A DNA stretch of 64,000 bases from Skermanella rosea (GTDB lineage Bacteria; Pseudomonadota; Alphaproteobacteria; Azospirillales; Azospirillaceae): positions 4,643,471-4,707,470 of the forward strand of contig NZ_CP086111.1 in assembly GCF_016806835.2 (NCBI RefSeq), read 5' to 3'. Below, in pieces: positions 24,381-38,656 of the stretch (positions are counted from its first letter, which is position 1; each line of letters opens with the position of its first letter). Below the pieces are notes generated by a model. The model did no database searches and was not told where the DNA came from. It saw only the letters and a program-made list of their open reading frames with translations. The translations under genes and the position numbers were made by a program.

Positions 24381-24396
24381 TGGCACCGATCTTGCC
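24381..24396 (+). promoter_or_regulatory. sigma-54 (RpoN) promoter motif
   Basis: TGGCAC (24381-24386), five bases, then TTGC (24392-24395) gives a perfect -24/-12 element with GG-N10-GC spacing. Transcription would start near 24407, leaving an 18-base leader that contains the AGGAGGA ribosome binding site of the 72-aa gene at 24425. I found no clear NtrC or NifA site in the 250 bases upstream, so the activator is unknown. Confidence 0.7.
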
Positions 24397-24424
24397 TTTA
24401 CAGGTCCACCACCAGGAGGAAAAC

Positions 24425-24643
24425 ATGGATACGCGACTGCATTATCAAATCGACGAGAAGCGGCCTGCCAGCAACGCGATGAACTATGCGCTGAACGTGG
24501 TCGAGACCATGGGCGACACCGGCCTGGTCAGCGTCCCGATCAAGCCGACCACCGCGATGCTGACCGCCGGCGCGCGTTCGGGCCATGTCAGCGTCGAGAC
24601 CGCCTGGAAGATCTACCAGGCGATGATCAACGAGGAAGGCTGA
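24425..24643 (+). CDS. small conserved-looking protein, 72 aa
   Basis: I do not recognise the family. The start is convincing: AGGAGGA lies five bases before the ATG and a sigma-54 promoter motif lies just upstream. The protein begins MDTRLHYQIDEKR and has a helical first half. A SVPIKPTTAMLTAGARSGHV segment follows, resembling short 'threshold' motifs in small bacterial regulators. An amphipathic end IYQAMINEEG closes it. It has no signal peptide or cysteines. It sits at the left border of the phage cassette but on the opposite strand and is probably a host gene, perhaps nitrogen- or stress-controlled through RpoN. Confidence 0.7.
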   Translation: MDTRLHYQIDEKRPASNAMNYALNVVETMGDTGLVSVPIKPTTAMLTAGARSGHVSVETAWKIYQAMINEEG

Positions 24644-24713: not shown

Positions 24714-25268
24714 TCAGGACGCCCCCTTTCCAACCCGGCGCGCCAGGAAAGCGAACGGCCCGGACTCCGGCCCGTCGCCCGCCGCGACCCGCTTGTCGCC
24801 GGACCTCTTGTAGACATAGATGCCCAGGACGCTGAGGCCGACGGTCCAGATCGTGCCGAGCGAGGTCATCGCCGTGATGACCAGATTCGCCTGTCCGGGG
24901 TCGGTCACGATCACCCAGGCGATGGCGAGCATCTGGGCGAGCCAGGTCAGCGCCATGATGTAGCCGAAGGTCGGCCGCATCCGCCGGACATAGGCGTCCT
25001 CCGACGCGACTTCCGCCCGCAGGCTCCGGTTCACCTCGGTCAGCGCGACCCGCCGGTCGGCGGAGTCCAGCTCGGCCATCCGCTCCACGTGGCGGTTCGC
25101 CTCGGCCACCGATTCGGCCGGGATGCTGCCGTCGCCCACCGCGGCGTCCACCGCCCGGACGGCCTTTGCGGCCTGGGCCGCGACGGGACCGTCGATCTTC
25201 TCCAGCCCGGCCCCGACCGCCTTCAGGAGCAACGGGAGCCCGAGTTGGGCGAGCGCCAGCGGGATCAT
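24714..25268 (-). CDS. GTA/phage holin, 3-TM type
   Basis: The 184-residue protein starts with a hydrophobic helix (IPLALAQLGLPLLLKAV). A charged helical middle follows (about 20-105). Two transmembrane helices come next (YIMALTWLAQMLAIAWVIV and LGTIWTVGLSVLGIYVYKR). This matches the 3TM holin family named for release of gene transfer agents. The final residues are Gly/Ala-rich. It is the last gene of the cassette and overlaps the endolysin stop by four bases. It should form inner-membrane lesions that let the endolysin reach the wall. Confidence 0.75.
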   Translation of the reverse strand: MIPLALAQLGLPLLLKAVGAGLEKIDGPVAAQAAKAVRAVDAAVGDGSIPAESVAEANRHVERMAELDSADRRVALTEVNRSLRAEVASEDAYVRRMRPTFGYIMALTWLAQMLAIAWVIVTDPGQANLVITAMTSLGTIWTVGLSVLGIYVYKRSGDKRVAAGDGPESGPFAFLARRVGKGAS

Positions 25269-25768
25269 GACGGCACCCCGCCGCCGGCCGCGTAGAACAG
25301 GCGGTCGCCGATCTCCGCGGTCGGCGCCAGCCGAGCCGCCCAGTCCGGCAGGATTCCGCCGTCATGGTACAGGGTGGCGCCCCCGGTCGGATCGTCCAGC
25401 AGGCCGGCCGCCGCCCGCCGGGCGATCCGCAGGCAGGTCGCGAACAGCAGGGCGTCGGACGATGCCCGGCCGCTCCCCGTTGGACCGGAGGGCTGGACGA
25501 CGGAAAGCCGGAACAGGGCCGGGTTGTCGGCGCTCCAGCAGGGAAACCGCCGGCAGATGTCGGCGATGGCTGCGCCGGGCTCCAGGGCCGCCCGGTTCAT
25601 GACGACCGCGGCCACCGCCTCCATGCCCCGCAGCGTCTCGGTCCGCGCCTCGCCCCACAGGGTGCGGGCAAAGATGTCGATGGTGCCGTCGCCCGGCCCG
25701 CCCGCGGCGGGCCGGGCGGCGGGCGAGGCAGCGGGCGATGGAACGGGCACCAGCCTCCGCCGGGTCAT
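25265..25768 (-). CDS. endolysin, SleB-type cell wall hydrolase
   Basis: This 167-residue protein has a Pro/Ala-rich lead of about 28 residues and then the Hydrolase_2 (SleB) domain. FARTLWGEARTETLRGMEAVAAVVMNR carries the catalytic glutamate in GEA, then CRRFPCWSADNPAL, and TGGATLYHDGG follow. SleB-like enzymes are lytic transglycosylases that cut the glycan strand. No signal peptide is seen, so export depends on the neighbouring holin. Four-base overlaps join it to both neighbours. Confidence 0.85.
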   Translation of the reverse strand: MTRRRLVPVPSPAASPAARPAAGGPGDGTIDIFARTLWGEARTETLRGMEAVAAVVMNRAALEPGAAIADICRRFPCWSADNPALFRLSVVQPSGPTGSGRASSDALLFATCLRIARRAAAGLLDDPTGGATLYHDGGILPDWAARLAPTAEIGDRLFYAAGGGVPS

Positions 25769-26088
25769 CGCCGCTCTCCCGACCGCTCGGCCTGGATCAG
25801 GGCCGCTCCGTCCAGCTTCGCGTCGATGCGCAGCAGATGGTCGGTCAGCCGGCGCTCGACGTCCTTCAGGTAGCCGACGGACACGTAGGTCTTGGCGACC
25901 TCCAGCTTGTAGGCCGACAGGCTCTCCCGCATCTGGGACAGCGCCGTCTCGGACAGGCGGTGGACACGGTCGAGCGCCTCCTCCGACTCCTGGCGGACAT
26001 GCCAGATCAGCCAGAACAGGGCGGCCAGCATCGGCAGCTCGACGACGGTGATCCACCAGGAGAGATTGATCCCGGAAGCTTCAGGCAT
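25765..26088 (-). CDS. small membrane-anchored coiled-coil phage protein
   Basis: The 107-residue protein has one N-terminal transmembrane helix (WWITVVELPMLAALFWLIWHV) and a long amphipathic helix after it (EALDRVHRL...). It resembles phage or GTA small membrane proteins near the lysis genes, and by position and shape could be a spanin-like or holin-regulating factor. There is no lipobox. It starts the lysis group, separated from the terminase gene by a terminator. Confidence 0.7.
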   Translation of the reverse strand: MPEASGINLSWWITVVELPMLAALFWLIWHVRQESEEALDRVHRLSETALSQMRESLSAYKLEVAKTYVSVGYLKDVERRLTDHLLRIDAKLDGAALIQAERSGERR

Positions 26089-26109
26089 TTGCTTTTCTCC
26101 TGATCAGGA

Positions 26110-26138
26110 CGAAGAAAGGCCGCCCCGAATGGGCGGCC
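26110..26138 (-). terminator. terminator between terminase and lysis genes
   Basis: The inverted repeat GGCCGCCC (26118-26125) / GGGCGGCC (26131-26138), followed on the minus strand by TTTCTTC, lies 25 bases past the terminase stop. Lysis genes downstream would need readthrough or another promoter. Confidence 0.7.
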
Positions 26139-26162
26139 CGGTCATTCCCGCTGGCGGGAAGG

Positions 26163-27674
26163 TCACACTTTGAAGTCGGTCACGGCCCGACCCGGCGGGC
26201 CACCGCGCCAGTCGGCGTTCCGGCCGGGCCTCGCGACCGCGCCGAAACGGACCGGCTCGGTCGACAGGCAGCCGGCGACGGCGTCCAGGCCGTCGTCGTG
26301 GCCCTTGTGCCGGCCGCCGGGGCGCCACTCGCGCATTTCCCGCACGAAGGGCGTGTCCCAGACGCTGCGGTGGGCATGCAGCGCGCCGGCGGCCAGCACG
26401 GCGTCGAACGCCTCCAGGATGCGGCGGTCCTTCGGCACGCTGGAGCTCTTCTCCACCACCGAGGCCCCGACCCCGCACCGCGCCAACTCCCGCCGCAGGA
26501 TGCCGGGCAGGAACTTTCCCACGCCGTTGGTCTCCAGGATGACCGACGGCAGGTGGAGGTCGCGCAGGAACTCCGCCACCTGCCGGCACTGCTGCGCCGC
26601 CTCGTGGTCGTCGCCGTCCGGAACCGCCGTCAGGTAGCGGATCCGATGCAGCCAGTAGCCTCCGTCGGCGTCGGAGAAGACGGCGGCCAGGACGCTGCCG
26701 TCCCCCGCCCTGCCCTCCCGCGCGGCACCGTCCGGCGCCGCCGCCCCGTAGGCCGGGTCCCACCAGCAGCTGGCCGACACCATGCGCCGGTCGCCCAGCA
26801 TCAGCACCGGAACGCCGCGGGCTTCGCGGTAGTCCAGCTCGGCCTCGTAGGGCAGCAGGCGGTCCGGGTCGAGCCGGCCGTCGGCGATGCTGACCGGCTT
26901 CAGCATCATCTGGCTTTCGAACTTGTTCGGCCCGGTCGCCCGGCGGATGCGCTCGATCGCCTCGTCCGGGAAGCGCGTGGGCCAGGCGCTTTTCTCGTCG
27001 GCGTCCCGGATCGGGATGAGAAGCCGCTGGAACCCGTCGAGGAAGGGAACGGCCTCGCCGATCTCGGCGCGCGGCTCGTCGGCATAGATGGTGTAGTAGC
27101 TGTGCGGCGTGCCGACATAGAGCTGCATGCCGCCGGGCACCAGGATATAGTCGATCTCGCTCAGCCGCTCGCGCAGGTCCTCCCGTTTCGGCGCGGTGTC
27201 GCAGGTGCGCGGGACCTCCACGTCGTCGCAGATCACGACGTCCGCCCGGCTGCCGGTCAGGTTCGCCCCGATCCCGCGGGCCAGCATGCTGGGATCGCGC
27301 AGTTCCATCGGCCGCCGGACGGTGAACTGGTCGCTGGCCCACTGGTCGGCCCGCTCGGGCTTGAGGCCCTGGGTCTGGGGGTGGCGCTCGACGATCCGCT
27401 TGACGGTGCGGACCATCTTCTTGGCCAGCGCCAGGTCGGCCGCCAGCACCATGATCCGCAGGGACGGGTCGGTCTTCAGCAGCCAGGCCGCGAACAGCCC
27501 GACCACGGTCGATTTCCCGCTGTTGCGGAACGCCATCAGGAGGAGCCGGCGGTCTCCCCCGTACCAGCCCGTGGTCAGCCATTCGGCGATGCGCATGTGG
27601 TGGTCGGGCGACGGCAGGTCCTGGAACGTGTTCCACACGATCAGGAAATCCCTGAAACTCTCGAACCTTTCCAC
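26163..27674 (-). CDS. terL: phage terminase large subunit
   Basis: The 503-residue DNA packaging motor has an ATPase domain with Walker A FRNSGKST at 49-56, an LAADLALAKKMV block after it, and Walker B VVICDDVE at 146-153. A coupling motif region follows (LYVGTPHSYYT). The C-terminal nuclease half shows the expected acidic residues in WWDPAYG, ETNGVGK and GHDDGLDAV. It resembles the terminases of podoviruses and related prophages. The gene seems complete and free of disabling changes, which argues for selection. It follows the 106-aa gene by a few bases. Confidence 0.93.
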   Translation of the reverse strand: MERFESFRDFLIVWNTFQDLPSPDHHMRIAEWLTTGWYGGDRRLLLMAFRNSGKSTVVGLFAAWLLKTDPSLRIMVLAADLALAKKMVRTVKRIVERHPQTQGLKPERADQWASDQFTVRRPMELRDPSMLARGIGANLTGSRADVVICDDVEVPRTCDTAPKREDLRERLSEIDYILVPGGMQLYVGTPHSYYTIYADEPRAEIGEAVPFLDGFQRLLIPIRDADEKSAWPTRFPDEAIERIRRATGPNKFESQMMLKPVSIADGRLDPDRLLPYEAELDYREARGVPVLMLGDRRMVSASCWWDPAYGAAAPDGAAREGRAGDGSVLAAVFSDADGGYWLHRIRYLTAVPDGDDHEAAQQCRQVAEFLRDLHLPSVILETNGVGKFLPGILRRELARCGVGASVVEKSSSVPKDRRILEAFDAVLAAGALHAHRSVWDTPFVREMREWRPGGRHKGHDDGLDAVAGCLSTEPVRFGAVARPGRNADWRGGPPGRAVTDFKV

Positions 27675-27680
27675 CGCCGT

Positions 27681-28001
27681 TCAGTCCCCGTCCGGGGCGT
27701 CCGTCCCGTCCAGTTCGGCGATCGTGCGCGCCGCCCGGGCATAGACCTCGGCGAACGGATCGCCCGGAGCGCCATCGTCCGGGGCGGCACCGTCCGGCCC
27801 CGCCTTCGGCAGCGTCGCCGTGACCAGCCGGTGGAGTTGGAAGAGCGCCGTCAGGTGGCCGATCGCCGCCTTGCAGGCGCCCTGGAGGGCGGTGAACTCC
27901 TTCGGATCGTCCGGCAGGGAGACTTCGCAGATCTTCCCGTAGGCTTCGGCGGCCCGTTTCACCGCCGGCGGCAGGACCACCGCCAGCAGGGTGGTTCGCA
28001 T
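27681..28001 (-). CDS. possible terminase small subunit / packaging protein
   Basis: This is a 106-residue protein if the ATG at 28001 is used, which has GAAGGA six bases upstream; an ATG seven codons earlier is possible. It is helical with an Asp/Pro-rich C-terminal third (ELDGTDAPDGD). Similarity to a known small terminase is not evident. Assignment rests on position directly before terL, the place of gp18 in T7-like phages. It may instead be an unrelated small protein. Confidence 0.55.
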   Translation of the reverse strand: MRTTLLAVVLPPAVKRAAEAYGKICEVSLPDDPKEFTALQGACKAAIGHLTALFQLHRLVTATLPKAGPDGAAPDDGAPGDPFAEVYARAARTIAELDGTDAPDGD

Positions 28002-28038
28002 ATCTTGTCCTTCATCGAGCATCGGGTTCCAGGTCCTT

Positions 28039-30069
28039 TCATGGGTTGCGCGCCAGGATGTGCCAGGCGGCGCCGTTGGACATCGCGGTCACCGCATGCC
28101 CCTTCTCGACCAGCGCGATGGCCTCGCCGTCGGGTCCGCCGCCGCCCGCCTGGGTGACGGTCACGGCGTTGCCGCTGACGTCGGATTTCTTGATCGTGAC
28201 GGTGCGGCCGACCGCCAGGGTGGCGGACGGGGCCGGCAGCCGGACCTCCGTCGGACCGCCATAGGCGCTGACCAGGTAGAAGCCCCGCGCCAGGTCCGGC
28301 TCGAACAGGCTGCCGCCCTCGAAGAAGCCGGCGTTGCCCGGCACCGCGTGGGCCGCCGTGATCCACCACGCCGCCCCGTTGGAGACGACGGTGACGAAAT
28401 CGTACCGGCTGCCGAGCGGGAACGGCCTGCCGTCCGGCCCCGATCCGGTGGCGTCGGTGACCGTCACGGCGTTGCCGCTCAGGTCCATCTTCTTGACCGT
28501 CAGCGACCGCCCCTCGGCATCCGGGGGCGCCGGCAGGCGGAACTCGACGGCGCCGTTGAAGGCGCTGACCAGATGGACCGAGCGCGTCATGTCCGGCAGC
28601 ACCAGCCCGCCCGCGACCGGGTCGACGAAGCGGGTCTCGTACCGCATCGCCTCCACCGTCAGGTCGGTGACCTGGCTTCTCTTGAACCGGTTCTTGGCGG
28701 GATAGCCCGCGTTGTAGGCCGTGAACTCGCCGCCGGACTGGTCCCAGATCGCCGGCCCGCCGCTCGCCGAGAACAGGTTGGTGATCGAGGTCTCCTTCGA
28801 GCCCGCCTCCAGGTACACGTTGGGCACGCCGCCGACCGACTCGGTGTAGAGGTTGACCAGCAGGTTCTTGTCGGTGTCCGGCCCGATCCGGAAGCAGGAA
28901 TGGGCCGTGGTGGACAGGTTCGCCTCGCAATCGACGAAGGCGTTGTTGTAGCGCCCGTGCTGGACGTAGAAGCCCGACCCGGCGCTGGGCACCGCCAGCG
29001 AATAGACGCGGACGCAGTGGAACTTGTTGGCGTTCGGCGTGTCGCCCTCCCCCGTGCGGACAAGGTGGACGCCGTGCAGCAGATGGCGGACCACCAGCAC
29101 CCGCGCCAAGTTGTTCCAGTAGCAGGGCCGGTCCGGGCTGTCGCCGCCGTCCAGCACGATGCCGGTCCCGGTGTCCCACACCGTCACGTCATGCACCGCG
29201 TTCTGCACGCACGGCCCGTCCCGCCCGGTCAGCTTGATGCCGACGCTGCCCTGCTCGATCCGCAGATGGTGCAGGCTGGCGTAGCTGTCGGGCAGCAGGA
29301 CGACCGGAAAGCCCTCTCCGTCGGCGCGCAGGATCGACCCGGCGCCCGACCCGTGCAGCGTCTGCCCGTACCCCACCGGCAGCGTCCCGGTCACTCGGTA
29401 GGTGCCCGGCGGCACGAAGACGGACGTGGCGGCCGTCAGCGCGGCCTGGATCGCCAGGGTGTCGTCGGCGATGCCGTCGCCCACCGCGCCATAGTCCCGC
29501 ACCGACGCCACGTCGGCCAGCTTGTCCCGGATCGAGCGCCGGACCGCGCCGGCTCCCGGGGCCACGAAGCTGCTCAGCGCGTCGGCGTCCACCGCCGGCG
29601 TCACGGTCGGGTTGCCGCCGCCGTCGAACGCCAGAAGCCGGTTCGCCCGCGCCGCCCGGCCGGGCAGCAGCGACGAGGCCGGCAGGTCGGTCGCGGCGTA
29701 GCGCAGCGTCAGCAACGCGTCGTCGGCGAGCTGCTGGACGCAGGCGGTCAGGTAGTCGAACTCGTCGTTGAGCGACCGGGCCGGCAGCGCGCCGCTCTCC
29801 AGGAAGTCGGTCACCCGCTCGTAGGGCAGCCGGCGCAGCAGCGTGACCTGGACGCCCTCGGGCGGGGCCACGTCGAAGGTGACGGTACCGCCCGCCGTGG
29901 CGCCGCTTCCGGTCACCGTGAAGCCGCCGGTCTGGAGGGCGGCGTCGAGATGGACCTCGATGTCCTCCGACGCGAAGATCGGGAACGGATAGGCGAAGGC
30001 CCGCTGTGTCCCGTCCGCGATATAGTGCCGGCGCGGGGGAACCGCGCCGATCTTGATATGTCCGGTCAT
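28039..30069 (-). CDS. phage tail spike with pectate-lyase-like fold
   Basis: The 676-residue protein begins with a T7 gp17-like N-terminal attachment domain of about 145 residues (HYIADGTQRAFAYPFPIFASEDIEVHLD, LNDEFDYLTACVQQLADDA). A beta-helix follows, opening with VRDYGAVGDGIADDTLAIQAAL, the usual Pectate_lyase_3 start. It carries hydrophobic repeats to about residue 480. The C-terminus is two tandem copies of a module of about 90 residues (LVSAF/YGG..RLPAP...LSGNAVTVT...NGAAWW/HI). The role is receptor binding and perhaps polysaccharide depolymerase. The start at 30069 (MTGHIKIG) is preferred over an earlier in-frame codon. Confidence 0.9.
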   Translation of the reverse strand: MTGHIKIGAVPPRRHYIADGTQRAFAYPFPIFASEDIEVHLDAALQTGGFTVTGSGATAGGTVTFDVAPPEGVQVTLLRRLPYERVTDFLESGALPARSLNDEFDYLTACVQQLADDALLTLRYAATDLPASSLLPGRAARANRLLAFDGGGNPTVTPAVDADALSSFVAPGAGAVRRSIRDKLADVASVRDYGAVGDGIADDTLAIQAALTAATSVFVPPGTYRVTGTLPVGYGQTLHGSGAGSILRADGEGFPVVLLPDSYASLHHLRIEQGSVGIKLTGRDGPCVQNAVHDVTVWDTGTGIVLDGGDSPDRPCYWNNLARVLVVRHLLHGVHLVRTGEGDTPNANKFHCVRVYSLAVPSAGSGFYVQHGRYNNAFVDCEANLSTTAHSCFRIGPDTDKNLLVNLYTESVGGVPNVYLEAGSKETSITNLFSASGGPAIWDQSGGEFTAYNAGYPAKNRFKRSQVTDLTVEAMRYETRFVDPVAGGLVLPDMTRSVHLVSAFNGAVEFRLPAPPDAEGRSLTVKKMDLSGNAVTVTDATGSGPDGRPFPLGSRYDFVTVVSNGAAWWITAAHAVPGNAGFFEGGSLFEPDLARGFYLVSAYGGPTEVRLPAPSATLAVGRTVTIKKSDVSGNAVTVTQAGGGGPDGEAIALVEKGHAVTAMSNGAAWHILARNP

Positions 30070-30094
30070 GATGTGTCCACTTCCCGTGTCGCCC

Positions 30095-30703
30095 CTAATA
30101 GGCGTTGCCGAACAGTTCGAGCCGCTGGCGCTCGGCCAGCTGCGACTGGTCCAGCAGGTTGCGCCGGCGGGAATCCTCGACCTCCTGGGACAGCGCCTGC
30201 CCGCGCAGCCGCTCGACCGCCTGGGCGTTCCGGCTGTCGGCGTCGGTCCGGTTGACCAGTCCCAGCAGCACCGCCTCGCCGGACCCGTCGGCGGTGCCGC
30301 CGCCCCACGTCCCCAGGCTGGCCCGGCTGCGCCCGACCGCCCGGCGGAGGGCATCGCGGCGGGCCGCCTCGTCGGCTTCGGCGCTGGCCTGGATCTGGGC
30401 GCGGCGGGTCTCGATATCGGCCCGCTGCGCCTCGGCCGCTGCCTCCTGGCCCTGTAGGAGCTGCCGGGTCTGGAGGGCGTGGGTCTCGCGCAGCACCTCC
30501 TCGGCGTGGCGTTTCTGGTCGGCCAGCTCCCGCTGGCGGTTCGCCTCCTTCTGCTTCTCGAACTCCAGCTCCTCGGCCCTTTGCCGGGCTTCGGCCTCCG
30601 CCGCCTTGCGGGCGTCCGACGCGCTGGAAAAGCCGTTGACCACCCGCTGCGCGCTGGAGATCACCGGCAGGGCCTGCAAGGCCACGTTGGCAATGCCACC
30701 CAT
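30095..30703 (-). CDS. coiled-coil internal virion-like protein
   Basis: The 202-residue protein has a short hydrophobic N-terminus (IANVALQALPVISSAQRV), then a continuous, highly charged coiled coil (about 30-135, rich in Glu/Arg/Gln), and an Asn/Arg tail. By position after tail tubular B and before the tail spike it corresponds to the small internal virion protein (gp14 of T7). The two large ejection proteins that normally follow are absent. Its ATG overlaps the tail tubular B stop by one base. Confidence 0.65.
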   Translation of the reverse strand: MGGIANVALQALPVISSAQRVVNGFSSASDARKAAEAEARQRAEELEFEKQKEANRQRELADQKRHAEEVLRETHALQTRQLLQGQEAAAEAQRADIETRRAQIQASAEADEAARRDALRRAVGRSRASLGTWGGGTADGSGEAVLLGLVNRTDADSRNAQAVERLRGQALSQEVEDSRRRNLLDQSQLAERQRLELFGNAY

Positions 30704-32616
30704 CAGTCGTTCACCTTCAATTCCATGGTTACGGAGAGCAGCGTGAACGGCAGGGGAGCGTCCTGCTCGATCCGCCACAGCGGTGCGGTCTGGTCCCGCG
30801 CCCAGCCGAGCGAGCGCAGCCGGCGGTCGCCGCTGACCCGTTGCGGGGCCGCGTCGCCGAGCGCCGCGTCGCCCAGCCGGCGCAGCGGGAAATCGGTCAG
30901 GCCGGCACCGACGTCGGCCCGCAGCGCCGCGGTGTCCTCCAGCTGGAAGACCGCCTGGACCAGCCGGAGCGCCGGTCCCCGGCCGCCGCCGGTGGACAGC
31001 GGGCTGGGCGGCAGCGGCTCGACCACATGGGTGAAGGGCAGTCCCGCCTCCACCGTGCGGGCCGGCGGGTCCAGGGTTATGGCGCCGCCGGACACCGTCG
31101 CGTCCGGCCGAAGCACGCCGTCGGCCACCACCCCGACGGCCCGCCCCTCCAGGTGGTCGAGCCCCGACCACACGGCGGCCGGTTCGTCGCTCTCCCCGTA
31201 CAGGCCGGCATCCAGGTGGAGCGCGTCGTCCAGCCGCTCGATGTTCCAGCGGGTCGAGAAGCCTTCCGGCCGCTGGACCAGCAGATGGACGTCGTCGCCG
31301 ACCACGGCGACGGAATGGATCGTCCCGCCGGTGTCGATCCGGGTCCAGGCGGTGACCTGCTCGGCGCGGAACAGGGTCAAGGCTCCCAGCGTGCCGTCGG
31401 CCATGACGATCAGCATCAGCCGGCGTCCCTGGTCGTAGTCCTGGTCCACCGGGCGGACCACCAGATGCCGGGCCAGCAGCGCCAGGTCTGTCGCCTGGTA
31501 CGCCTGTTCGCTGTCGGCGAACAGGAACTCCCGGATCTCCCGGCCGTTGCGCGACACGAACAGGGTCGCCCCGTCCACGTCGCGCGGCGGCACCGACCGG
31601 TCGGTCGGCGAGCCGATGCGGGTCTGGCGGTTGAGCTGGATGGTCTGGGGCGTCAGCGGCTCTCCCGTGACCATCCATTCCGCCCCCGAGGTGAAGACCT
31701 GCAGGTGCCGGCCCGAGAACACCGCCCGGATCGCGTTGATCTGGTCGGACAGGATGCCGAACTCGATCGCCTCGTCGTCGAGCCCCGTCCCTAAGTCGAA
31801 GTTCCAGATATCGGCGGAGCGGGACAGCCACAGCCGGTTCGGCAGCTCGCGCGAGCCGCCGATCACCAGCCGGTCCTGGTGGAACGCGGCCGAGACCGGA
31901 TAGCCCCGCAAGGGCGAGAAGGCCTGCTCGTCCCACACCGCCGTGGCGGCGGTCCCGGTCAGCGCCTCGGCCGTCACGACCCGCACCTGCGTCCCCGACA
32001 GCACGTCCAGGACGGTGACCTGGCGGCCCGCCACCCGCAGCCTGACGCCCGCGTGCCCCGGCTGGAACACGGCGGCCGAGGCGGTCAGGACGACCGTCCC
32101 GGTGGTTCCGTCCGGCGTCAGGGTCACCCCGGCCGGCGCGAAGCGGTACCAGGGCTGGCGGATCGCGCTCCCTTCCACCAGGAATTGCCACTCCTCCAGC
32201 GACCACGCGGACTCTCCCGTACGCTTCAGCTTGCGCGGGGCGACGTCGGGATGGCAGACCAGCAGGGTGTCGCCGCTCTGGGTCCAGGTGATCTGGCCCA
32301 GCTGCGACGCCGTCCAGGGCGCCTCGACGGTCGCCACGACGGCGTCGCCGCGCAGCACGTCGATGCGGTATTCCGAGAAGGCCAGCAGGTAGGTCTGCTC
32401 GGTGCTGAACTCGAACGCGACCAACCGCCCCGGCCCCCGCGCCGCGGCCGAGAACGCCATGCCCGGCCGCCGGGTGATCCCGCCGGTCGGGTGGATCAGC
32501 AGGTTGCGCAGGGTCAGCGCCCCGTTGTCGTAGGCCCGGAGGTCGCCGCGCCCCAGCAGCAGGCGGGAAATCTCGCCGCTGGTGAAGTTGGTCTTCAGGA
32601 TCCGGACCCGGGTCAT
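30703..32616 (-). CDS. tail tubular protein B (T7 gp12-like)
   Basis: The 637-residue protein begins with the diagnostic LKTNFTSGEISRLLLGRGDLRAYDNGALTLRNL and RRPGMAFSAAARG. Blocks follow that typify the nozzle protein of podovirus tails: GYPVSAAFHQDRLVIGG, LWLSRSADIWNFD, and FGILSDQINAI. Length is somewhat below T7 gp12. It overlaps the tail tubular A stop by four bases. It forms the distal tail tube and is evidence that the particle is a short-tailed podovirus, not a siphovirus such as RcGTA. Confidence 0.88.
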   Translation of the reverse strand: MTRVRILKTNFTSGEISRLLLGRGDLRAYDNGALTLRNLLIHPTGGITRRPGMAFSAAARGPGRLVAFEFSTEQTYLLAFSEYRIDVLRGDAVVATVEAPWTASQLGQITWTQSGDTLLVCHPDVAPRKLKRTGESAWSLEEWQFLVEGSAIRQPWYRFAPAGVTLTPDGTTGTVVLTASAAVFQPGHAGVRLRVAGRQVTVLDVLSGTQVRVVTAEALTGTAATAVWDEQAFSPLRGYPVSAAFHQDRLVIGGSRELPNRLWLSRSADIWNFDLGTGLDDEAIEFGILSDQINAIRAVFSGRHLQVFTSGAEWMVTGEPLTPQTIQLNRQTRIGSPTDRSVPPRDVDGATLFVSRNGREIREFLFADSEQAYQATDLALLARHLVVRPVDQDYDQGRRLMLIVMADGTLGALTLFRAEQVTAWTRIDTGGTIHSVAVVGDDVHLLVQRPEGFSTRWNIERLDDALHLDAGLYGESDEPAAVWSGLDHLEGRAVGVVADGVLRPDATVSGGAITLDPPARTVEAGLPFTHVVEPLPPSPLSTGGGRGPALRLVQAVFQLEDTAALRADVGAGLTDFPLRRLGDAALGDAAPQRVSGDRRLRSLGWARDQTAPLWRIEQDAPLPFTLLSVTMELKVND

Positions 32617-33185
32617 CGGCCGCGCGCCTCGACCAGGGTGAAGTCCTCGAAGCCCGGCTGGCTGTCCTGTTGGACGTCGATCAGCCGGGCGCGCCGGAAC
32701 TCCGCCTCCGCCAGCCGGGCCAGCGCCTCGGCCCGGCTGGTGTTCTCGGTCAGCGGCAGGCAGAACTCCGCCGCCAGCCGGGCGATCAGCGCCTGGTCGA
32801 AGAACGGCGGGAACGCCGCCTCCGCCGGGCGGCTGACATAGGTCAGCGTGACCTGGTCGCTGTCCGACTGGAGCGTGGTGCCGACGATCCTGTAGCCGAT
32901 GCCCCGGCCCCGGCCGGGCGTCCCGGCGGACAGCGCCCGCAGGAAATCGACCGGCAGGGCATGGGCGAAGCCGTGGTCGCCGAGCGGCGCCTCGGCCAGC
33001 CGGGCCAGCGTCGCCTGGACCGTCGCGAAGCTCCAGGCGTTGGCCGAGAGCAGCGCGTCGCGGGTCGGCCCGTAGAGCGCGTCCGCGACCTCCGCCTCGG
33101 CGGTGCCGTCGGTAAAGCCGGTGATGGAAGCTGCCCCGATCTTGATCAGGGCCCTGCTGCACAGACCGATCGGGGTCAGCGCCAT
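32613..33185 (-). CDS. tail tubular protein A (T7 gp11-like)
   Basis: The 190-residue protein has the adaptor signature LCSRALIKIGAASITGFTDGTAEAEVADALYGPTRDALL, followed by SANAWSFATVQATLARL and PVDFLRAL. The C-terminal half carries DVQQDSQ and PGFEDFTLVEARGR. The length matches gp11-like adaptors that connect portal and tail tube. It is translationally coupled to tail tubular B. Its ATG at 33185 follows an AGAGGAG-type ribosome binding site. Confidence 0.88.
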   Translation of the reverse strand: MALTPIGLCSRALIKIGAASITGFTDGTAEAEVADALYGPTRDALLSANAWSFATVQATLARLAEAPLGDHGFAHALPVDFLRALSAGTPGRGRGIGYRIVGTTLQSDSDQVTLTYVSRPAEAAFPPFFDQALIARLAAEFCLPLTENTSRAEALARLAEAEFRRARLIDVQQDSQPGFEDFTLVEARGR

Positions 33186-33216
33186 GGGGTGGTTCTCCTC
33201 TGGCAGGGGGGCTGGA

Positions 33217-33486
33217 TCAGTCGCCGTTGGTGGCGCCGACCTGGGTCAGGTTGGCGACGTCCACGGTGCCGCCGCTGTTGGAGGCGACCAGCAGGATGCC
33301 GGCCTGGGGCGTCCCGTCGGCGTCGAGGTTGGCCATGATCATGTCGCCGACCCGCAGCATGTCGGAGGCGGCGTTGAAATAGCCGGCGGTGTCGGCGTCC
33401 GCCGCGAGGTCGCCGGTGACGTAGTGCCAGAGCGTGAAGCCGTTGGCATATGCCAGGACGCTCAGGTCCTTGGTCTTGAAGGCCAT
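33217..33486 (-). CDS. small virion protein, possible decoration protein
   Basis: This 89-residue protein is soluble and beta-rich (SVLAYANGFTLWHYVTGDLA, GTVDVANLTQVGATNGD). Homologous short genes sit immediately after the capsid gene in several podovirus-type prophages and may encode a capsid decoration or minor protein. I do not assign a precise role. It has a clear start at 33486 after AGGAGTT and is 30 bases from the capsid stop. Confidence 0.6.
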   Translation of the reverse strand: MAFKTKDLSVLAYANGFTLWHYVTGDLAADADTAGYFNAASDMLRVGDMIMANLDADGTPQAGILLVASNSGGTVDVANLTQVGATNGD

Positions 33487-33515
33487 CTTCGGAACTCCTG
33501 GGGATGGGGGATCGG

Positions 33516-34334
33516 TCAGTTCTCGAGGCAGCGCAGGGTGACGACGCCTGATGTGTCGATCAGGCAGGCGCCCTGGCTCATCATGTTGTTGACGAAGTGC
33601 GAGGCGCGGTCGCCGTGCCAGGTCACGTCGGTGGTGACGTCGGCGCCGGCCGCGTGCCCGACCGCCGTCTTGTGGTACCAGTGGCAGAGCCGCACGTTGC
33701 CGTTCAGCGTCAGGCCGGAATGGGGGATCCACAGGGTGCCCAGCCAGCGCTTGGCCTGGGTGCCGCGCCACGGCAGCTCGTCCGGCCCGACATAGTCGGA
33801 CTTGGCGAACTCCTCGATCCCCAGCAGCTGGCTCCACTGCTTCCAGCCGACCACCGCGTAGCGCTGCCCGTCGTCGGGAACGTCGGCTTGGCCCAGCGTC
33901 TCGAAGGCGGCCAGCACCTTGGCCTTGGTCAGCCCGTCGGTGGCGAGGCCGGCATAGCTGACGGAGGTGTCCAGCTGGGCGATGATCAAGTCGTCGGTCT
34001 TGCGGCCCAGCGCATAGGCACCGGCGTTGGTGATGACCGAGCGTTCGTCGATGTTGGTCTTCAGCTCGTCCAGCTTGTCGACCCAGTCGCCGGCGTAGTA
34101 GTCGGTCAGGATGCATTCGACCGGCGCGTGGTCGATGTTCATCACCGGGACCGCGCCGTGGCGCGCCTTGGGCGAGGCGACCCCCTTGCCGACCTTCTGG
34201 AAGATGGTCGAGGCGCCGCGGACGTCGCCCTTGCTGCGCACCGTGTTGCGCAGCTTGGAGCCCATCCGCTGGAAGCTCTCGTGGACCTCGCGCTCGAACT
34301 GCTTGACGAAGGCCCTGTCGATGGTGGTGGACAT
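33516..34334 (-). CDS. major capsid protein
   Basis: The 272-residue protein is of the phage capsid family found with T7-like portal proteins. It begins MSTTIDRAFVKQFEREVHESFQRMGSKLR, has a central ILTDYYAGDWVDKLDE segment and a C-terminal NNMMSQGACLIDTSGVVT. It is shorter than HK97-type capsids and has no fused protease. It lies after the scaffold gene and before tail genes. The gene has its own AT-rich promoter-like element about 110 bases upstream and an intervening hairpin. Confidence 0.85.
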   Translation of the reverse strand: MSTTIDRAFVKQFEREVHESFQRMGSKLRNTVRSKGDVRGASTIFQKVGKGVASPKARHGAVPVMNIDHAPVECILTDYYAGDWVDKLDELKTNIDERSVITNAGAYALGRKTDDLIIAQLDTSVSYAGLATDGLTKAKVLAAFETLGQADVPDDGQRYAVVGWKQWSQLLGIEEFAKSDYVGPDELPWRGTQAKRWLGTLWIPHSGLTLNGNVRLCHWYHKTAVGHAAGADVTTDVTWHGDRASHFVNNMMSQGACLIDTSGVVTLRCLEN

Positions 34335-34377
34335 GGATGCGCGATCCTTTCTGGAAGGCCCGCCGTGACGCGGGCAA

Positions 34378-34411
34378 AGAAAAAGGCCAGACCGCGAGGT
34401 GCGGTCCGGCC
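34378..34411 (-). terminator. hairpin with T-run upstream of capsid gene
   Basis: Arms GGCCAGACCGC (34385-34395) and GCGGTCCGGCC (34401-34411) form a 10-bp stem with one mismatch and a GAGGT loop. On the minus strand it is followed by TTTTTCTTT. It lies after higA and 44 bases before the capsid ATG, so it may end higA transcription, attenuate capsid expression or act as a processing site. Confidence 0.65.
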
Positions 34412-34442
34412 CGGTGGACGGAGTTGTGGTGTTGACAGGGAA

Positions 34443-34472
34443 AGTATTAGGTTTTTATTCCTTTTCGGTCAA
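34443..34472 (-). promoter_or_regulatory. possible capsid promoter
   Basis: On the minus strand TTGACC (34472-34467) is followed after 17-18 bases by TAATAC/AATACT (34449-34443), in a conspicuously AT-rich patch within GC-rich surroundings. It lies downstream of higA and upstream of the hairpin at 34378-34411. The -10 match is moderate. Confidence 0.45.
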
Positions 34473-34514
34473 GCCCTTTTTCATCGCTCCGCGAATTTTC
34501 CCCGAAGGTCCGGC

Positions 34515-34871
34515 TCAGGCGGGCCGGAACGGCATGACCTCCGCCGCGATCCTGGCGCCGGCTTCCCGGCGGGCCGTCTCCAGATCATACCGCGCCTGAA
34601 GATTGATCCATATCTGCGCCGACGTGCCGAAATACCGGCCGAGCCTGAGCGCGGTATCGCCGGTGATGCCGCGCCAGCCCGTGACGATGGCGTGGATCCG
34701 CGTCGCCGGCACCCCCACGTCCTTCGCCAGCCTGTAAGCCGAAATGCGGAGCGGCCCGAGAAACTCCTCGGAAAGGATCTCGCCGGGATGAACGGGAGGA
34801 AGCATCTCGCCGGTTGCCACGTCGGCAAAGTCGATGCTCCCCGCGTCGATATCCTCACGTGCGATGGCCAT
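34515..34871 (-). CDS. higA: HigA-type antitoxin, orphan
   Basis: The 118-residue protein has a Cro/CI-type helix-turn-helix with the HigA signature: PPVHPGEILSEEFLGPL, SAYRLAKDVGVPATRI, and GTSAQIWINLQARYDLE. Such antitoxins repress their own operon and neutralise the HigB RNase. No HigB frame is present in the 170 bases upstream or in the gap downstream, so it is an orphan. It interrupts the scaffold-capsid gene order, where podoviruses normally have nothing, and may serve as a regulator of the cassette. Confidence 0.85.
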   Translation of the reverse strand: MAIAREDIDAGSIDFADVATGEMLPPVHPGEILSEEFLGPLRISAYRLAKDVGVPATRIHAIVTGWRGITGDTALRLGRYFGTSAQIWINLQARYDLETARREAGARIAAEVMPFRPA

Positions 34872-34938
34872 GCGTTCCTCCCGTCACTCTCCGGTTCGAG
34901 GGTAATCGACGCTCCCGACCTCGGCAACCGGAGCTGTA

Positions 34939-35034
34939 CCCGATCAGGTCGATCCGCCCGAGACGGCCGATCCGATGCGTTGCGCCATGGGCGCAACACA
35001 GCCGCGAGGATCGGAGCGGTTCAACCTGATCGGG
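34939..35034. repeat. nested inverted repeats upstream of higA
   Basis: Outer arms CCCGATCAGGT (34939-34949) and ACCTGATCGGG (35024-35034) are perfect 11-bp complements. Inside them GTTGCGCC (34979-34986) and GGCGCAAC (34990-34997) form a perfect 8-bp hairpin with a 3-nt loop. The whole can fold into a long stem between the scaffold stop and higA. It could be an insertion footprint, an operator for HigA or an RNA processing structure. Confidence 0.6.
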
Positions 35035-35041
35035 TTCCGCT

Positions 35042-35668
35042 CTACTCGCGGTCGGGATACATCCGGCGGAAGCCCTCCGTCACCTTGGCGAGCAGGGCAG
35101 GGTCGCGGTCGCGCCAATAGCGCGGGTCGCGCATCATCTTGTGCAGGTCGGCCTCGCTCCCCGCCGGCTGGGTCTCGGCCGCCCCGCTCCCCGCAACCGC
35201 GCGGAGCGCCGCCGGCTCCGACGCGGTCATCATGCGGTGAAGGGCGATCACCCCGTCATAGCTGGTGGTCAGGCCGTCCAGCGCCGATGCCGGCAGGTTC
35301 TTCTTCGCCCAGGCCAGGAGCTGGCGGGAGATCTCGCGCCAGGCATCCTCGCCGCCGAAATGGCTGACCAGCCGCATCACCTCGCGCTCCGCCTCGAACT
35401 CGAAGGCGATCTGCCGGATCATCGGCACCAGCCGCTCGGCCGCCAGATCGTACAGCAGCTGCGCCTGCTCGGGCGTGAAGCCGGCGGCGTGGAGCCGCCG
35501 GTTCAGGTCCGGGTCGGCCTCGAACAGCCCATGGTCGCACCGGATGCAATAGCCGTCCGGCGCGTCCGGCACGCCCAGCATCCGCATCAGCGCGGCGCGG
35601 TCGGGAACGCCGGCGCCGGGGGTAACCGGGTCCGAGGCCGCGGGGTCGATCAGCAGGGATTCGCTCAT
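35042..35668 (-). CDS. capsid scaffolding protein
   Basis: The 208-residue protein is acidic at its start and helical afterwards (AGFTPEQAQLLYDLAAERLVPMIRQ, and a basic end YWRDRDPALLAKVTEGFRRMYP). It resembles capsid assembly proteins of T7-like phages in size, charge and position between portal and capsid genes. Direct sequence identity is low. The C-terminal basic helix is where scaffolds usually contact the capsid protein. The ATG at 35668 follows AGGAGTG. Confidence 0.7.
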   Translation of the reverse strand: MSESLLIDPAASDPVTPGAGVPDRAALMRMLGVPDAPDGYCIRCDHGLFEADPDLNRRLHAAGFTPEQAQLLYDLAAERLVPMIRQIAFEFEAEREVMRLVSHFGGEDAWREISRQLLAWAKKNLPASALDGLTTSYDGVIALHRMMTASEPAALRAVAGSGAAETQPAGSEADLHKMMRDPRYWRDRDPALLAKVTEGFRRMYPDRE

Positions 35669-35713
35669 AGGTCACACTCCTCAGGATGAAACGAAAGGAA
35701 GGAAGAAGGGAAC

Positions 35714-37168
35714 TCACTCCGCCGCCGCGGGCGCCGTCCGGACCAGCTCGCCCGGCACGCCGAACGAGCGGCCGAGCCAGCGGGCCGCGGCGGCATGGTC
35801 GACCGCCGCCTCGGCGTCCTTGCCGAGGCCGCCGGCCACCTCCAGCCAGCGCAGCGTCGCCTGGACGTCGCGCTGGGCCTGCGCCTGGGCCAGGGGCGAG
35901 CGGTACTGGAGCTCGACCGTCCTGCCGTCCACGGCGACGTCGGGGATCTCGCCGCGCCGGCGCAGGATCGCGACGGCCCGCATCATCAGCGGCGTCAGCA
36001 GCTCGGACTGGAGCCGGCCATAGGTGGCGCCCAGCAGGCGCGACATCTCGGCCGACCGTTCCAGCACCTCGGTCGCGGTCATCCGGCCGTCCGACACCTG
36101 CCCCAGCCGGTCCACCAGCAGGGCGTGCCGGATGCGCCGCCGCAGGTCGTCGAGCACCAGCTGCGACACGTCGAACCGGCCGGGCGCCGCCAGGGGCGTC
36201 AGCCCCGCCGACCCCACCGCCTTGGGGATGATGGTGCCGGGCACCAGCCGGATCGTGCCGGGGTTCAGCACCCCGTCGTCGTCGGCCTGCCAGATGCCGG
36301 TGACCGCGATCGAGGCGTTCTTCAGCACCAGTTCGACCACCTTGTTGGCCGTCTTGATGTCGGGCAGCGCCTTCATCACCGGCGACCGGCCATAGGTCTC
36401 GCCCGGCGCCTTCAGCCAGCGGAAATTGATGAAGGGGGAGCGGGCGAACCGCCCCTCCGCCAGGACGGCCGCCTCCGCCAGCCCGCTGTCCAGGATCACG
36501 CTGTAGCGGTAGGCCGAACCGTCCTTCAGGACCGCCTCGACCACCGCGAAGCGGGCCTGGGGATCGCGGGCGGCCTCCCGCTCCAGCGCGTCCGGAACGG
36601 CGGCGTCGGGGAACCGCAGCCGGAGCTGCGCCAGGGTCAGCTCGCTGCGCCGGAAGGTCCCATCCAGCCGCCCGTCGGCGCCCTCCTCCAGCACGACCTC
36701 GGCCAGCGGCACCGCGGTGAAGCGGAAGCCGGAGTAATCGCCCGGCGCCGCCTCCTCGAACAGCAGGCAGGCGGTCCCGGCGGTCACCAGGTCAAGGTAG
36801 CATTGGTGCATCTCGACCGCGAAGTTCGACCGGTCGAAATGCGACTGGAGCGTGATCGCCGCCTTCTCCAGCACGGGGGCGGCGGCGTCCCGCTCGGCAT
36901 CGTCCAGGTCCGGCCCGGGCGCCAGGCCGAACCAGCGGGACCAGGGCGGCGTCAGCTGGGCCAACAGGCTGGCGGCGAGCTGTTCGACCGCGTCGGCCGC
37001 GGTGCCGTCGAACAGCCGGTCGGCCTTGCGTTCCCCCGGGCTTCCCCCGGAGCCGAACCCGCCGCCGTGGGGCAGCGCGTGGTCGTAGCATTCCTGCCAG
37101 TGGGCTTCCCAGACGCTCCGCCTGGATTTGGCCGCGTCGAAGCGCTGGAGCAGCGCCGGTGCGTCCAT
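35714..37168 (-). CDS. portal (head-tail connector) protein
   Basis: The 484-residue protein belongs to the podovirus head-tail connector family: a start with DAAKSRRSVWEAHWQECYDHALP, GERKADRLFDGTAADAVEQLAASL, LTPPWSRWFGL, YLDLVTAGTACLLFEE, and a late RMTATEVLERSAEMSRLLG. Such proteins form the dodecameric portal through which DNA is packaged. The ATG at 37168 is preceded by AGTAGGGCG; a longer frame upstream is not conserved. It is the first large structural gene of the cassette, as gp8 is in T7. Confidence 0.9.
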   Translation of the reverse strand: MDAPALLQRFDAAKSRRSVWEAHWQECYDHALPHGGGFGSGGSPGERKADRLFDGTAADAVEQLAASLLAQLTPPWSRWFGLAPGPDLDDAERDAAAPVLEKAAITLQSHFDRSNFAVEMHQCYLDLVTAGTACLLFEEAAPGDYSGFRFTAVPLAEVVLEEGADGRLDGTFRRSELTLAQLRLRFPDAAVPDALEREAARDPQARFAVVEAVLKDGSAYRYSVILDSGLAEAAVLAEGRFARSPFINFRWLKAPGETYGRSPVMKALPDIKTANKVVELVLKNASIAVTGIWQADDDGVLNPGTIRLVPGTIIPKAVGSAGLTPLAAPGRFDVSQLVLDDLRRRIRHALLVDRLGQVSDGRMTATEVLERSAEMSRLLGATYGRLQSELLTPLMMRAVAILRRRGEIPDVAVDGRTVELQYRSPLAQAQAQRDVQATLRWLEVAGGLGKDAEAAVDHAAAARWLGRSFGVPGELVRTAPAAAE

Positions 37169-37172
37169 CGCC

Positions 37173-37574
37173 CTACTCCCCCAGCAGGCGCTTGCGCGCC
37201 GGCGCGGCACCGGTTCCGGCCTGCTGGAGAACGCCGCGCCACGAGGTCAGCACCGTGCCGGTCAGGCTGCGGTCGCGCCGGGCCAGCGCCTTCTCCGCGG
37301 CGGCCAGCGCATCGGCCTGCTCCTGCGTGGCGGTCTTCGCGGGCGTGACCGGCGCGGGAGCCGGCGCCACGGGCTCGGCCGGCGCCGGCTTTGTGGCGGG
37401 TTCCTCCTCGACCGGCACCGCCGGGGTGGGGTCGGGCCTGGACACGACCGGCGCGGGAACGGTCGGTTCCGGCACGGCCGGCGCCGGGGTGACGGACGCC
37501 GTCGGGGACGTGGCGGCCGGGGACGTCGTGGTCACGACGGACGGCACCTTGGGCGGCGAGAACATCTTGGCCAT
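37173..37574 (-). CDS. Pro/Ala-rich phage-associated protein
   Basis: The 133-residue protein starts MAKMFSPPKVPSVV, then has about 70 residues of Pro/Ala/Val/Thr repeats, and ends in a conserved-looking helix EQADALAAAEKALARRDRSLTGTVLTSWRG and a basic tail RKRLLGE. Short proteins with the same MAKMFxPPK start and RK(R/L)LLGE end occur before portal genes in related prophages, by my recollection. The role is unknown; a minor head or ejection protein is possible. Confidence 0.65.
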   Translation of the reverse strand: MAKMFSPPKVPSVVTTTSPAATSPTASVTPAPAVPEPTVPAPVVSRPDPTPAVPVEEEPATKPAPAEPVAPAPAPVTPAKTATQEQADALAAAEKALARRDRSLTGTVLTSWRGVLQQAGTGAAPARKRLLGE

Positions 37575-37598
37575 GGGGATCGGGCTCCTTCGGAAGGT

Positions 37599-38063
37599 TC
37601 AGGAAAAGGCCGGCGAACCGGCCCGGGTGGACGCACGGCCGGCGGACGCGCACCCGACCGGCGACGCCGGGTCGAGCAGCCGGCGGTAAAGCTGCCAGGG
37701 GGTCAGCACCCAGCGGTCATGCAGCCCCAGCACCCGCTTGGCCGCTTCCACGCAGGTGAACGGCCCCCAGGGTGCCGGGCGGTCCAGGTCGCGCCGGACC
37801 GGGGCCGCCACCACGGCATGGCCGCGCTCGGCGAACCAGCCGACGAGGTCGAAGCCGGCGGCGACCGGCTGGACCGCGATCTCCAGGTGCGGCGACAGCG
37901 GGTCCACCGTGATCCAGTGGGTCCCGTCGTTCAGCGCCACGAAGCAGTGGCGGAAGCCCGGCCGCAGCAGCCGGAGCCACCACAGGTCGGCATCGCCGCA
38001 GAACACCACCCAGGCCCGCGGCTCGGCGCGGGGCGGGGCGGCGGGCGCCAGGGTGCCGCTCAT
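37599..38063 (-). CDS. uncharacterised protein with possible papain-like (NlpC/LRAT) core
   Basis: The 154-residue protein has no signal peptide. Two motifs suggest a permuted cysteine hydrolase: a histidine strand RHCFVALNDGTHWITVDP at about residue 38, and a later FTCVEAAKRVLGL helix start that could hold the catalytic Cys. No other residue is diagnostic and the assignment is tentative. It lies second in the cassette, four bases overlapping the preceding gene. A role could be wall processing during entry or protein processing during assembly. Confidence 0.55.
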   Translation of the reverse strand: MSGTLAPAAPPRAEPRAWVVFCGDADLWWLRLLRPGFRHCFVALNDGTHWITVDPLSPHLEIAVQPVAAGFDLVGWFAERGHAVVAAPVRRDLDRPAPWGPFTCVEAAKRVLGLHDRWVLTPWQLYRRLLDPASPVGCASAGRASTRAGSPAFS

Positions 38064-38497
38064 CCCGCGAGCCGGGCGTCGGCGACGATGCCCTTCTCGC
38101 GCAGGATGGGATCCAGGAAGTCCAACGCCTCCCGCCACAGGCCGGACGCCCGCACCTCCAGCCGGCGCTCCGGATCGGGCGCCATCAGGCGGCGGCCGTA
38201 ATGGACCAGCACGTGGAGGTGGTCGCGGATCAGCTTGCGCTGGCGGTACAGCCGGTCGACCACGCGGATCATGTCGAGCGGTTCGCAGGGGCGCGGCACC
38301 ATGCCGCGGCCGGCGACGATGCGGGCTCCGGACGCGCGGGCCTCCTGCGCCTGGACGAACCAGAACCAAGCTTCCTCGGCGCTGTCGAAAGGCACCGCGA
38401 AAGCGTCGGGATCCGTGTCGGGTCGCGGAGAACCGGGACTTCCGGCAGGAGAAGGCGGGCGATGCCGAAGGGGAGACGGGGACGGGTGGCCGGACAA
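38060..38497 (-). CDS. uncharacterised protein heading the phage cassette
   Basis: The 145-residue protein has a disordered Pro/Ser-rich start (about 40 residues), then a compact conserved-looking region: AEEAWFWFVQAQEARASG, PCEPLDMIRVVDRLYRQRKLI and ALDFLDPILREKGIV. I do not recognise the family. The gene is first after the LexA-box promoter and may be a small regulator or an assembly factor. Its stop overlaps the next start by four bases. Confidence 0.65.
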   Translation of the reverse strand: MSGHPSPSPLRHRPPSPAGSPGSPRPDTDPDAFAVPFDSAEEAWFWFVQAQEARASGARIVAGRGMVPRPCEPLDMIRVVDRLYRQRKLIRDHLHVLVHYGRRLMAPDPERRLEVRASGLWREALDFLDPILREKGIVADARLAG

Positions 38498-38559: not shown

Positions 38560-38599
38560 TTGATGTTCCCCTTATGTTCCGCTTTAATTCCTACGTCAA
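38560..38599. promoter_or_regulatory. divergent promoter with LexA (SOS) box
   Basis: The sequence GTTCCCCTTATGTTC (38565-38579) is a perfect alphaproteobacterial LexA box, GTTC-N7-GTTC, with a third weaker repeat ATTC at the same 11-base spacing (38587). For the plus strand, TTGATG (38560-38565) and TTTAAT (38583-38588) are 17 bases apart with the box between them. For the minus strand, TTGACG (38599-38594) and CATAAG (38576-38571) are also 17 apart, and the box covers the -10. One operator could thus control the S24 repressor gene and the phage cassette. Confidence 0.75.
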
Positions 38600-38656
38600 G
38601 CTTTTTGTGAAAACGTTCCTAGGGACATGAGGACCAGAATATGTGAAATTGTTCCC

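Follow-up and report, generated by a model that had tools for sequence, protein, structure and literature searches.

Podovirus-type cassette and control region in Skermanella rosea

The window analyzed here is a stretch of 64,000 nucleotides from the genome of Skermanella rosea (7.76 Mb in 7 contigs; assembly GCF_016806835.2, contig NZ_CP086111.1, positions 4,643,471 to 4,707,470), a member of the family Azospirillaceae within the class Alphaproteobacteria. It holds a cassette of podovirus-type head, tail, packaging and lysis genes on the minus strand, running from position 38497 down to 24714 in T7-like order and with host-like third-position G+C content (GC). The original prediction had described a T7-like structural cassette on one strand with host-like codon use, and the block, its coordinates and the profile matches hold.

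All cassette genes are intact here. The operon opens with orf145 (38060..38497), orf154 (37599..38063) and the proline-rich orf133 (37173..37574), the last poorly conserved outside its C-terminus. The portal, or head-tail connector (35714..37168), matches PF12236 at 1e-148; its start probably lies at 37168, since in relatives the stop of the preceding gene stands directly before that methionine. It is followed by the scaffold, a T7 capsid assembly protein (35042..35668; PF05396, 2e-14), the HigA-like orf118 (34515..34871) and the major capsid protein (33516..34334), whose sole Pfam match is PF19821 (6e-84). The tail genes encode tubular protein A (tubA, 32613..33185; phrog_394, 2e-43), tubular protein B (tubB, 30703..32616; phrog_376, 2e-137), a coiled-coil protein of 202 amino acids (aa) in the open frame between tubB and spike (30095..30703), and the tail spike itself (28039..30069; PF12708 and phrog_1640), which joins a tail-fibre-type N-terminus to a pectate-lyase-like beta-helix. 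Next come orf113 (27681..28022; phrog_31793, 4e-8, function unknown), putatively in the small-terminase position, and the T7-type large terminase gene terL (26163..27674; NF033889 termin_lrg_T7, 463 bits against a cut-off of 150). The last genes toward 24714 encode a 107-aa protein with one membrane helix and a coiled coil, spanin-like by eye (25765..26088), an endolysin of the cell wall hydrolase type (25265..25768; PF07486, 1e-8) and a GTA_holin_3TM holin (24714..25268; PF11351, 2e-11). The genes named in the original prediction were all recovered; its list had omitted the 202-aa gene, the 107-aa gene, orf145 and orf154.

Its further statement that integrase, polymerase and primase are missing agrees with our scan: no integrase or replication gene was detected among the cassette and adjoining genes scanned, and the RNA polymerase, DNA polymerase and primase that would mark a T7-like phage (autographivirus) were likewise not found among the scanned cassette and flank genes. 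The claim that there is no repressor needs correction, because an S24 (LexA/CI-like) repressor gene (38627..39289, plus strand; PF00717, 1e-25; phrog_4 transcriptional repressor, 3e-28) lies immediately beyond 38497, divergent from the cassette. Its functional residues are largely retained in relatives, with the Ala of the Ala-Gly cleavage site in 23/26, the catalytic Ser in 23/26 and the Lys in 20/23. Between the repressor and orf145 lies an SOS-box-like site, GTTCN7GTTC (38565..38579, plus strand), which we take to be the alphaproteobacterial LexA box. The exact motif precedes the repressor gene in 15 of 43 loci, and in 32 of 70 in a larger set, against a background of 0.052 per kb. A further operator-like element, TTCCTAGGGAC (38616..38626, plus strand), is a putative repressor site; TCCTAGGGAC is present in 22/22 printed family loci and in 0/9 printed loci outside the family.

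For orf145, a Q21-like antiterminator fold is possible; sequence searches gave no support for its being Q, and Foldseek with orf145 alone returned no match under E 3. The orf154 product may be a papain/NlpC-like cysteine hydrolase, having an invariant His39 and Cys104, and its Foldseek search gave no match under E 0.4. The 202-aa gene, without a match in the PHROG search, was present in 20 of 80 named loci (the best 80 of at least 547 relatives), many of which are clipped by contig ends or flanks, such that a missing gene often means one not covered. From its position it presumably corresponds to T7 gp14, an internal or ejection protein. No open frame of the cassette has the size of the large T7-type ejection proteins; smaller ones are possible.

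The slot between scaffold and capsid is variable. In the window it holds the HigA-like antitoxin orf118 (TIGR02607, 106 bits, cut-off 47.7), matched in only L032 and L033 among the loci fetched within and outside the family, whereas two Azospirillum loci carry there a membrane protein of about 800 aa, sensor kinase-like by eye (L037 7639-10038, L039 9269-11656). The latter adjoins the scaffold even in the split cassettes described below. On the downstream side, a small plus-strand gene of unknown function (24380..24643), kept in 22/24 family loci and 3/19 outside the family, separates the holin from the host genes for DUF952 and dihydroorotate dehydrogenase (DHODH, pyrD; 22657..24122, minus strand), which mark the common chromosomal site; a HAD hydrolase gene lies further downstream, and upstream, beyond the repressor, is GapR.

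Distribution, inheritance and selection

The portal was found in 5/5 genomes of the genus, and the portal, capsid and terL in 67, 68 and 68 of the 82 family genomes, respectively; a search at the level of the order took in these 82 genomes and no others. A sample of 385 genomes across the class yielded the portal in 54 (E <= 1e-100), terL in 58 and the capsid in 59 (E <= 1e-40); 52 of the 54 portal-positive genomes also carry capsid and terL at the cut-offs used. Copy number is mostly one per genome. Relatives number at least 547, and the best 80 of them fall in Azospirillum, Magnetospirillum, Paramagnetospirillum, Phaeospirillum, Terasakiella, Telmatospirillum, Rhodovibrio, Rhodospira, Pacificispira, Defluviicoccus, Micavibrio and numerous metagenome bins. 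IMG/VR has 297 stretches coding for a relative (80 kept); the listing of cassette-like elements there as viral contigs is expected and speaks neither for nor against domestication. One genus (g11) lacks the cassette in each of its seven genomes, so the cassette can be lost.

Some cassette-positive genomes of the class sample measure just 0.9-1.5 Mb. Three of 0.9 Mb, all from the same genus (G148 [L162], G267, G437), have terL in two pieces, with the ATPase and nuclease parts separated by other DNA, and a changed gene order, which may represent decay. Six genomes carry second portals that are only 28-32% identical (G008:C2, G033:C1, G020:C3, G026:C1, G078:C81, G052:C189); these probably belong to separate phages, i.e., real prophages.

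The original prediction of a domesticated particle entailed vertical inheritance with the same flanking genes as well as low ratios of non-synonymous to synonymous substitution (dN/dS), and both were observed. Within the family, most of the loci fetched have DUF952 and DHODH next to the terL end, with a DHODH match in 20/24. Outside it, 6 of the 19 genomes examined, from five families (L145, L147, L151, L155, L157, L163), have DHODH next to the cassette; these synteny loci were hand-picked (20 regions from 19 genomes, of 49 portal-positive in the sample). Protein distances correlate with those of RpoB at r 0.938 for the portal (29/30 genomes), 0.936 for the capsid and 0.812 for terL (p 0.001), the comparison gene DHODH giving r 0.947 in 20 genomes; among 13 genomes outside the family, the values are 0.894, 0.916 and 0.846, respectively. 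Left out of the distance rows were G374, which has no usable RpoB row, and, for lack of coverage, the G030 capsid, the tubA and tubB of G278, four repressor rows and nine DHODH rows. Mantel values among related taxa are no proof alone, the shared site and the trees being separate evidence. Of the 25 splits in the RpoB tree of 28 genomes, the portal tree recovered 13, terL 12 and the capsid 10, and 1000 label shuffles never produced more than two splits common with RpoB. Judged by these comparisons, the cassette is mainly vertically inherited, with some exchange.

Core genes are under purifying selection. Across up to seven genome pairs, dN/dS was 0.04-0.14 for the portal, 0.04-0.33 for the capsid, 0.06-0.17 for the spike and 0.07-0.30 for terL, values like those of host genes nearby (DHODH, 0.07-0.22). 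Constraint is weaker (0.05-0.62) for orf113, orf133, the 202-aa gene and the endolysin. All 30 genomes compared retain the terL Walker A motif (GKS), the acids of Walker B (DD, E) and those of the nuclease, which are the catalytic residues of this terminase family.

Split and interrupted cassettes

Portal and capsid share a contig in 45 family genomes, to which the following count is confined: the two genes lie within 12 kb in 27, are 19 kb apart in one, and in 17 are separated by 70 kb to 2.6 Mb. Where split genomes were fetched, the first half comprises the repressor with orf145, orf154, the portal and the scaffold; the second holds the capsid, both tubular proteins, the spike and terL, and mostly adjoins DUF952-DHODH. 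The G030 capsid and the portals of both G016 and G047 are interrupted. With the halves this far apart, obligate self-excision and self-packaging are hardly workable in split genomes. Packaging of the whole element would there involve DNA spread over at least 70 kb (17/45).

Several cassettes harbor mobile elements. In G043, G047, G021, G016 and G078, elements of 15-17 kb cut the portal at the codons for TGIWQA; they encode related tyrosine integrases (77-96% identical), and a 13-base repeat, GCATCTGGCAGGC, flanks all four inserts measured. The G047 insert (L053 5581-20000 plus L054 1-1130) carries an integrase, its own portal, a capsid-protease fusion, an HNH gene, small and large terminase and a replication initiator, and no tail gene was seen in the 16 of its 20 called open reading frames that were scanned. 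Satellites with an integrase, own portal, capsid-protease and terminase are known as capsid-forming phage-inducible chromosomal islands (PICIs), and the insert is like them in make-up. Such PICI-like satellites reside inside the cassette and are not components of it. A single integrase query on L031-L064 and L145-L264 gave matches in the five interrupted loci only.

Other insertions differ in content. An 11.4-kb island of 51% GC cuts the capsid gene of G004 (L034 8241-19501, L182 1-156), with a 12-base repeat, two tyrosine integrases, a C5 cytosine methylase and an EcoO109I-like restriction nuclease; G008 (L036/L181) has a 39-kb insert in the capsid gene with a 19-base repeat; the capsid halves of G030:C5 and G031:C17 are about 40 kb apart; and in G009, 46 kb lie inside the portal with no clear repeat. 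Short direct repeats of 12-19 bases were found at 6 of the 7 interruptions measured, and interruptions of this kind may be reversible. Such insertions may be tolerated, if making the particle is costly or seldom required, or may serve as a switch.

A candidate gene transfer agent and its alternatives

The nearest annotated free phages are Pelagibacter podoviruses, whose portals are 33-36% and capsids 33-48.5% identical. HTVC010P and Hodr EXVC031P are closest by portal and capsid, and HTVC010P has portal, capsid and tail genes in an order similar to the cassette; in contrast to the latter, their genomes measure 34-35 kb and contain many extra genes. An unannotated 5-kb faecal fragment, MT838907, is closer (58-59% identity) and may be bacterial.

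To our knowledge, neither type I nor type II of the 2022 classification of alphaproteobacterial gene transfer agents (GTAs) is T7-type, and no description of a podovirus-type GTA in Alphaproteobacteria was found in the open-access literature. The RcGTA cassette is similar in size to the present one. RcGTA (type I) is likewise an alphaproteobacterial, vertically inherited, phage-derived packaging cassette, but the available portions of PMC9662315 and PMC7947584 give it a 49 nm tail and a TerL near those of headful P22-like phages, as opposed to the short-tail genes and T7-type TerL found here. Membership in RcGTA was ruled out because its marker, GTA_TIM (PF13547), is missing from the S. rosea genome and from 81/82 family genomes, the sole family match being in G057 (28.5 bits). 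BaGTA of Bartonella is likewise a domesticated alphaproteobacterial agent that co-evolved with its hosts; the accessible part of PMC9662315 works with an HK97-type capsid protein, and the match of the present capsid to PF19821 only may mark a difference. A GTA proposed in Wolbachia was also rejected as the same element, as the part of PMC10299305 at hand concerns a lambda-like WO region. FpGTA of Faecalibacterium is, according to the text available from PMC12946183, likewise podovirus-type and GTA-like, with a small operon of terminase, portal, scaffold and capsid and, comparable to the split cassettes, a second operon, which in one strain lies at a distance of about 125 kb and carries genes for lysis and receptor binding. 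The likeness is one of description. FpGTA has a Gram-positive host, and its particles and their packaged DNA were shown experimentally, whereas particles of the present cassette are predicted.

Three of the traits by which GTAs are recognized occur together here: the genes for head, tail and packaging descend from a tailed phage; neither integrase nor replication genes are among the window's cassette and adjoining genes scanned; and the cassette evolves in concert with the host genome, as seen in RpoB distances, tree splits and the pyrD site. A tailocin would lack capsid and packaging genes, whereas portal, capsid, scaffold and terL are all present and conserved. Our confidence is high that domestication has taken place and that inheritance is mainly vertical; the original prediction of a domesticated particle is borne out in this respect, the cassette being more widespread than supposed and split in many genomes. 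From its sequence it is best read as a GTA of a previously unrecognised kind, and we consider it probable that a T7/HTVC010P-like podovirus is kept for the host as a gene transfer agent whose job is DNA transfer.

In the mechanism we propose, the S24 repressor, and probably LexA too, would keep the divergent promoter closed in undamaged cells. DNA damage would activate RecA and lead to cleavage of both repressors; orf145, as a Q21-like antiterminator, would be made first and allow the polymerase to read through the late operon. A head would then be built from portal, scaffold and capsid, and the T7-type terminase, with no element genome to recognise, would pack chromosomal DNA before the short tail and spike are added. 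In S. rosea, endolysin and holin would lyse the producer, and many relatives would rely on lysis genes from elsewhere or of a different kind. The particle would deliver DNA rather than kill.

A number of observations weigh against the GTA reading. Particle formation, packaging of host DNA and its delivery are themselves predicted from gene content, and no small terminase (TerS) was identified among the cassette genes. The exact SOS-type box is missing from 38 of the 70 loci, and upstream of the detached capsid half it was seen in just 1/12, within a ribosome-site stretch; a common SOS site ahead of that half was consequently discounted, and its control is unexplained. Outside the family, tubB (r 0.40) and the repressor (r 0.22, p 0.19) track RpoB poorly, the portal tree misses 12 of the 25 RpoB splits, and the portal is absent from 15/82 family genomes and, at the cut-off used, from 331/385 genomes of the class. 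A head of T7 size would take 13.8 kb, so that self-packaging of the 13.8-kb element would be allowed by size wherever the cassette is whole.

The lysis genes also weigh against it. Among family loci with terL, the endolysin is present in 15/24 and the holin in 6/24, and eight split Azospirillum loci (L165, L166, L168-L173) have neither at the terL end, where L165 leaves no space for them; the 107-aa gene is kept there, and overall in 20/24 family loci. Outside the family, where not all loci extend to the lysis genes, the holin is found in 9/19 and the 107-aa gene in 10/19. The endolysin and holin of Azospirillum may have been relocated elsewhere. As far as the available text of PMC3899980 goes, a 'phage-related lysozyme' in fixed context (AZOLI_2690 and orthologues), with a Magnetospirillum orthologue, is the only phage-type gene listed in the Azospirillum core, and mitomycin C produced no lysis of A. 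brasilense CBG497, a strain that may or may not have the cassette, although the portal is present in four A. brasilense records. Universality of holin and endolysin among relatives is thus not borne out by the family counts, which slightly lowers our confidence in a GTA and raises that in its rivals. The 3TM holin had been offered as support for a domesticated particle; the GTA_holin_3TM match is real, but with so few family loci carrying the gene it has little weight as GTA evidence.

Damage to the cassette is a further point against the GTA reading and the chief one for a prophage remnant that is decaying and without function today. The portal or capsid is interrupted in 10 of the 68 capsid-bearing genomes, and several more copies are frameshifted or partial (capsid and terL partial in G012; terL in two frames in G049 and G073, and the portal in G058); the absence of lysis genes at many loci and the patchy distribution fit the same picture. 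Against decay, the core genes are intact in most family genomes and under purifying selection, the terminase residues are invariant, and the repeats at most measured interruptions may make these reversible, so that we regard a remnant as improbable. An ordinary temperate podovirus, or a nearly always lysogenic one replicating by host enzymes, would account for the S24 repressor and SOS-type box as normal prophage parts, and podovirus prophages with a partly vertical history are described in the accessible part of PMC10386132. Such a phage would hardly share the pyrD site across families, mostly as one copy with RpoB-like distances, nor lie in distant halves with no integrase adjoining, and the nearest annotated free phage is just 36% (portal) and 48.5% (capsid) identical. 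An active prophage was rejected on the common site, the distances and the split halves, and we give the temperate podovirus in general very little credence.

A domesticated killing particle, by comparison, would share the inheritance and control of a GTA; like PBSX, it would have a DNA-filled head, deliver nothing and kill relatives. The retained spike is compatible with this, as is the single 202-aa gene in place of the large T7 ejection proteins, and the portions of PMC12946183 available to us discuss PBSX, along with the equally open choice between these two roles in FpGTA. A killer has less need of a packaging motor, however, and here selection maintains the portal, the scaffold and the capsid together with a terminase whose active-site residues are complete in every genome compared; the spike, moreover, is conserved rather than diversifying. 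We therefore think killing an unlikely job for the particle.

Within the favored GTA reading, we tentatively advance a fuller scenario, to which we grant slightly less than an even chance. The cassettes would form a third, podovirus-derived lineage of alphaproteobacterial GTAs, as old as the split of several families and SOS-induced through the S24 repressor, LexA box and Q-like antiterminator. It would have been common enough for satellites and islands to evolve the use of portal and capsid as attachment sites, switching the cassette off by insertion and possibly on by excision.

If true, the GTA reading would mean an independent domestication, with a T7-type particle common to Azospirillum, Magnetospirillum, Rhodovibrio, Micavibrio and others, and would imply that a T7-type terminase can likewise become a generalised packer. 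Lineages without the RcGTA marker would have a possible route of DNA transfer. Particles of Azospirillum were reportedly described as siphovirus-like by Boyer in 2008. According to the available portions of PMC3899980, earlier work found particles carrying some 10 kb of host DNA in A. lipoferum and strain B510 and, from a weak similarity, linked them to genes resembling those of RcGTA; which genes yield these particles is an old question that the cassette now makes testable.

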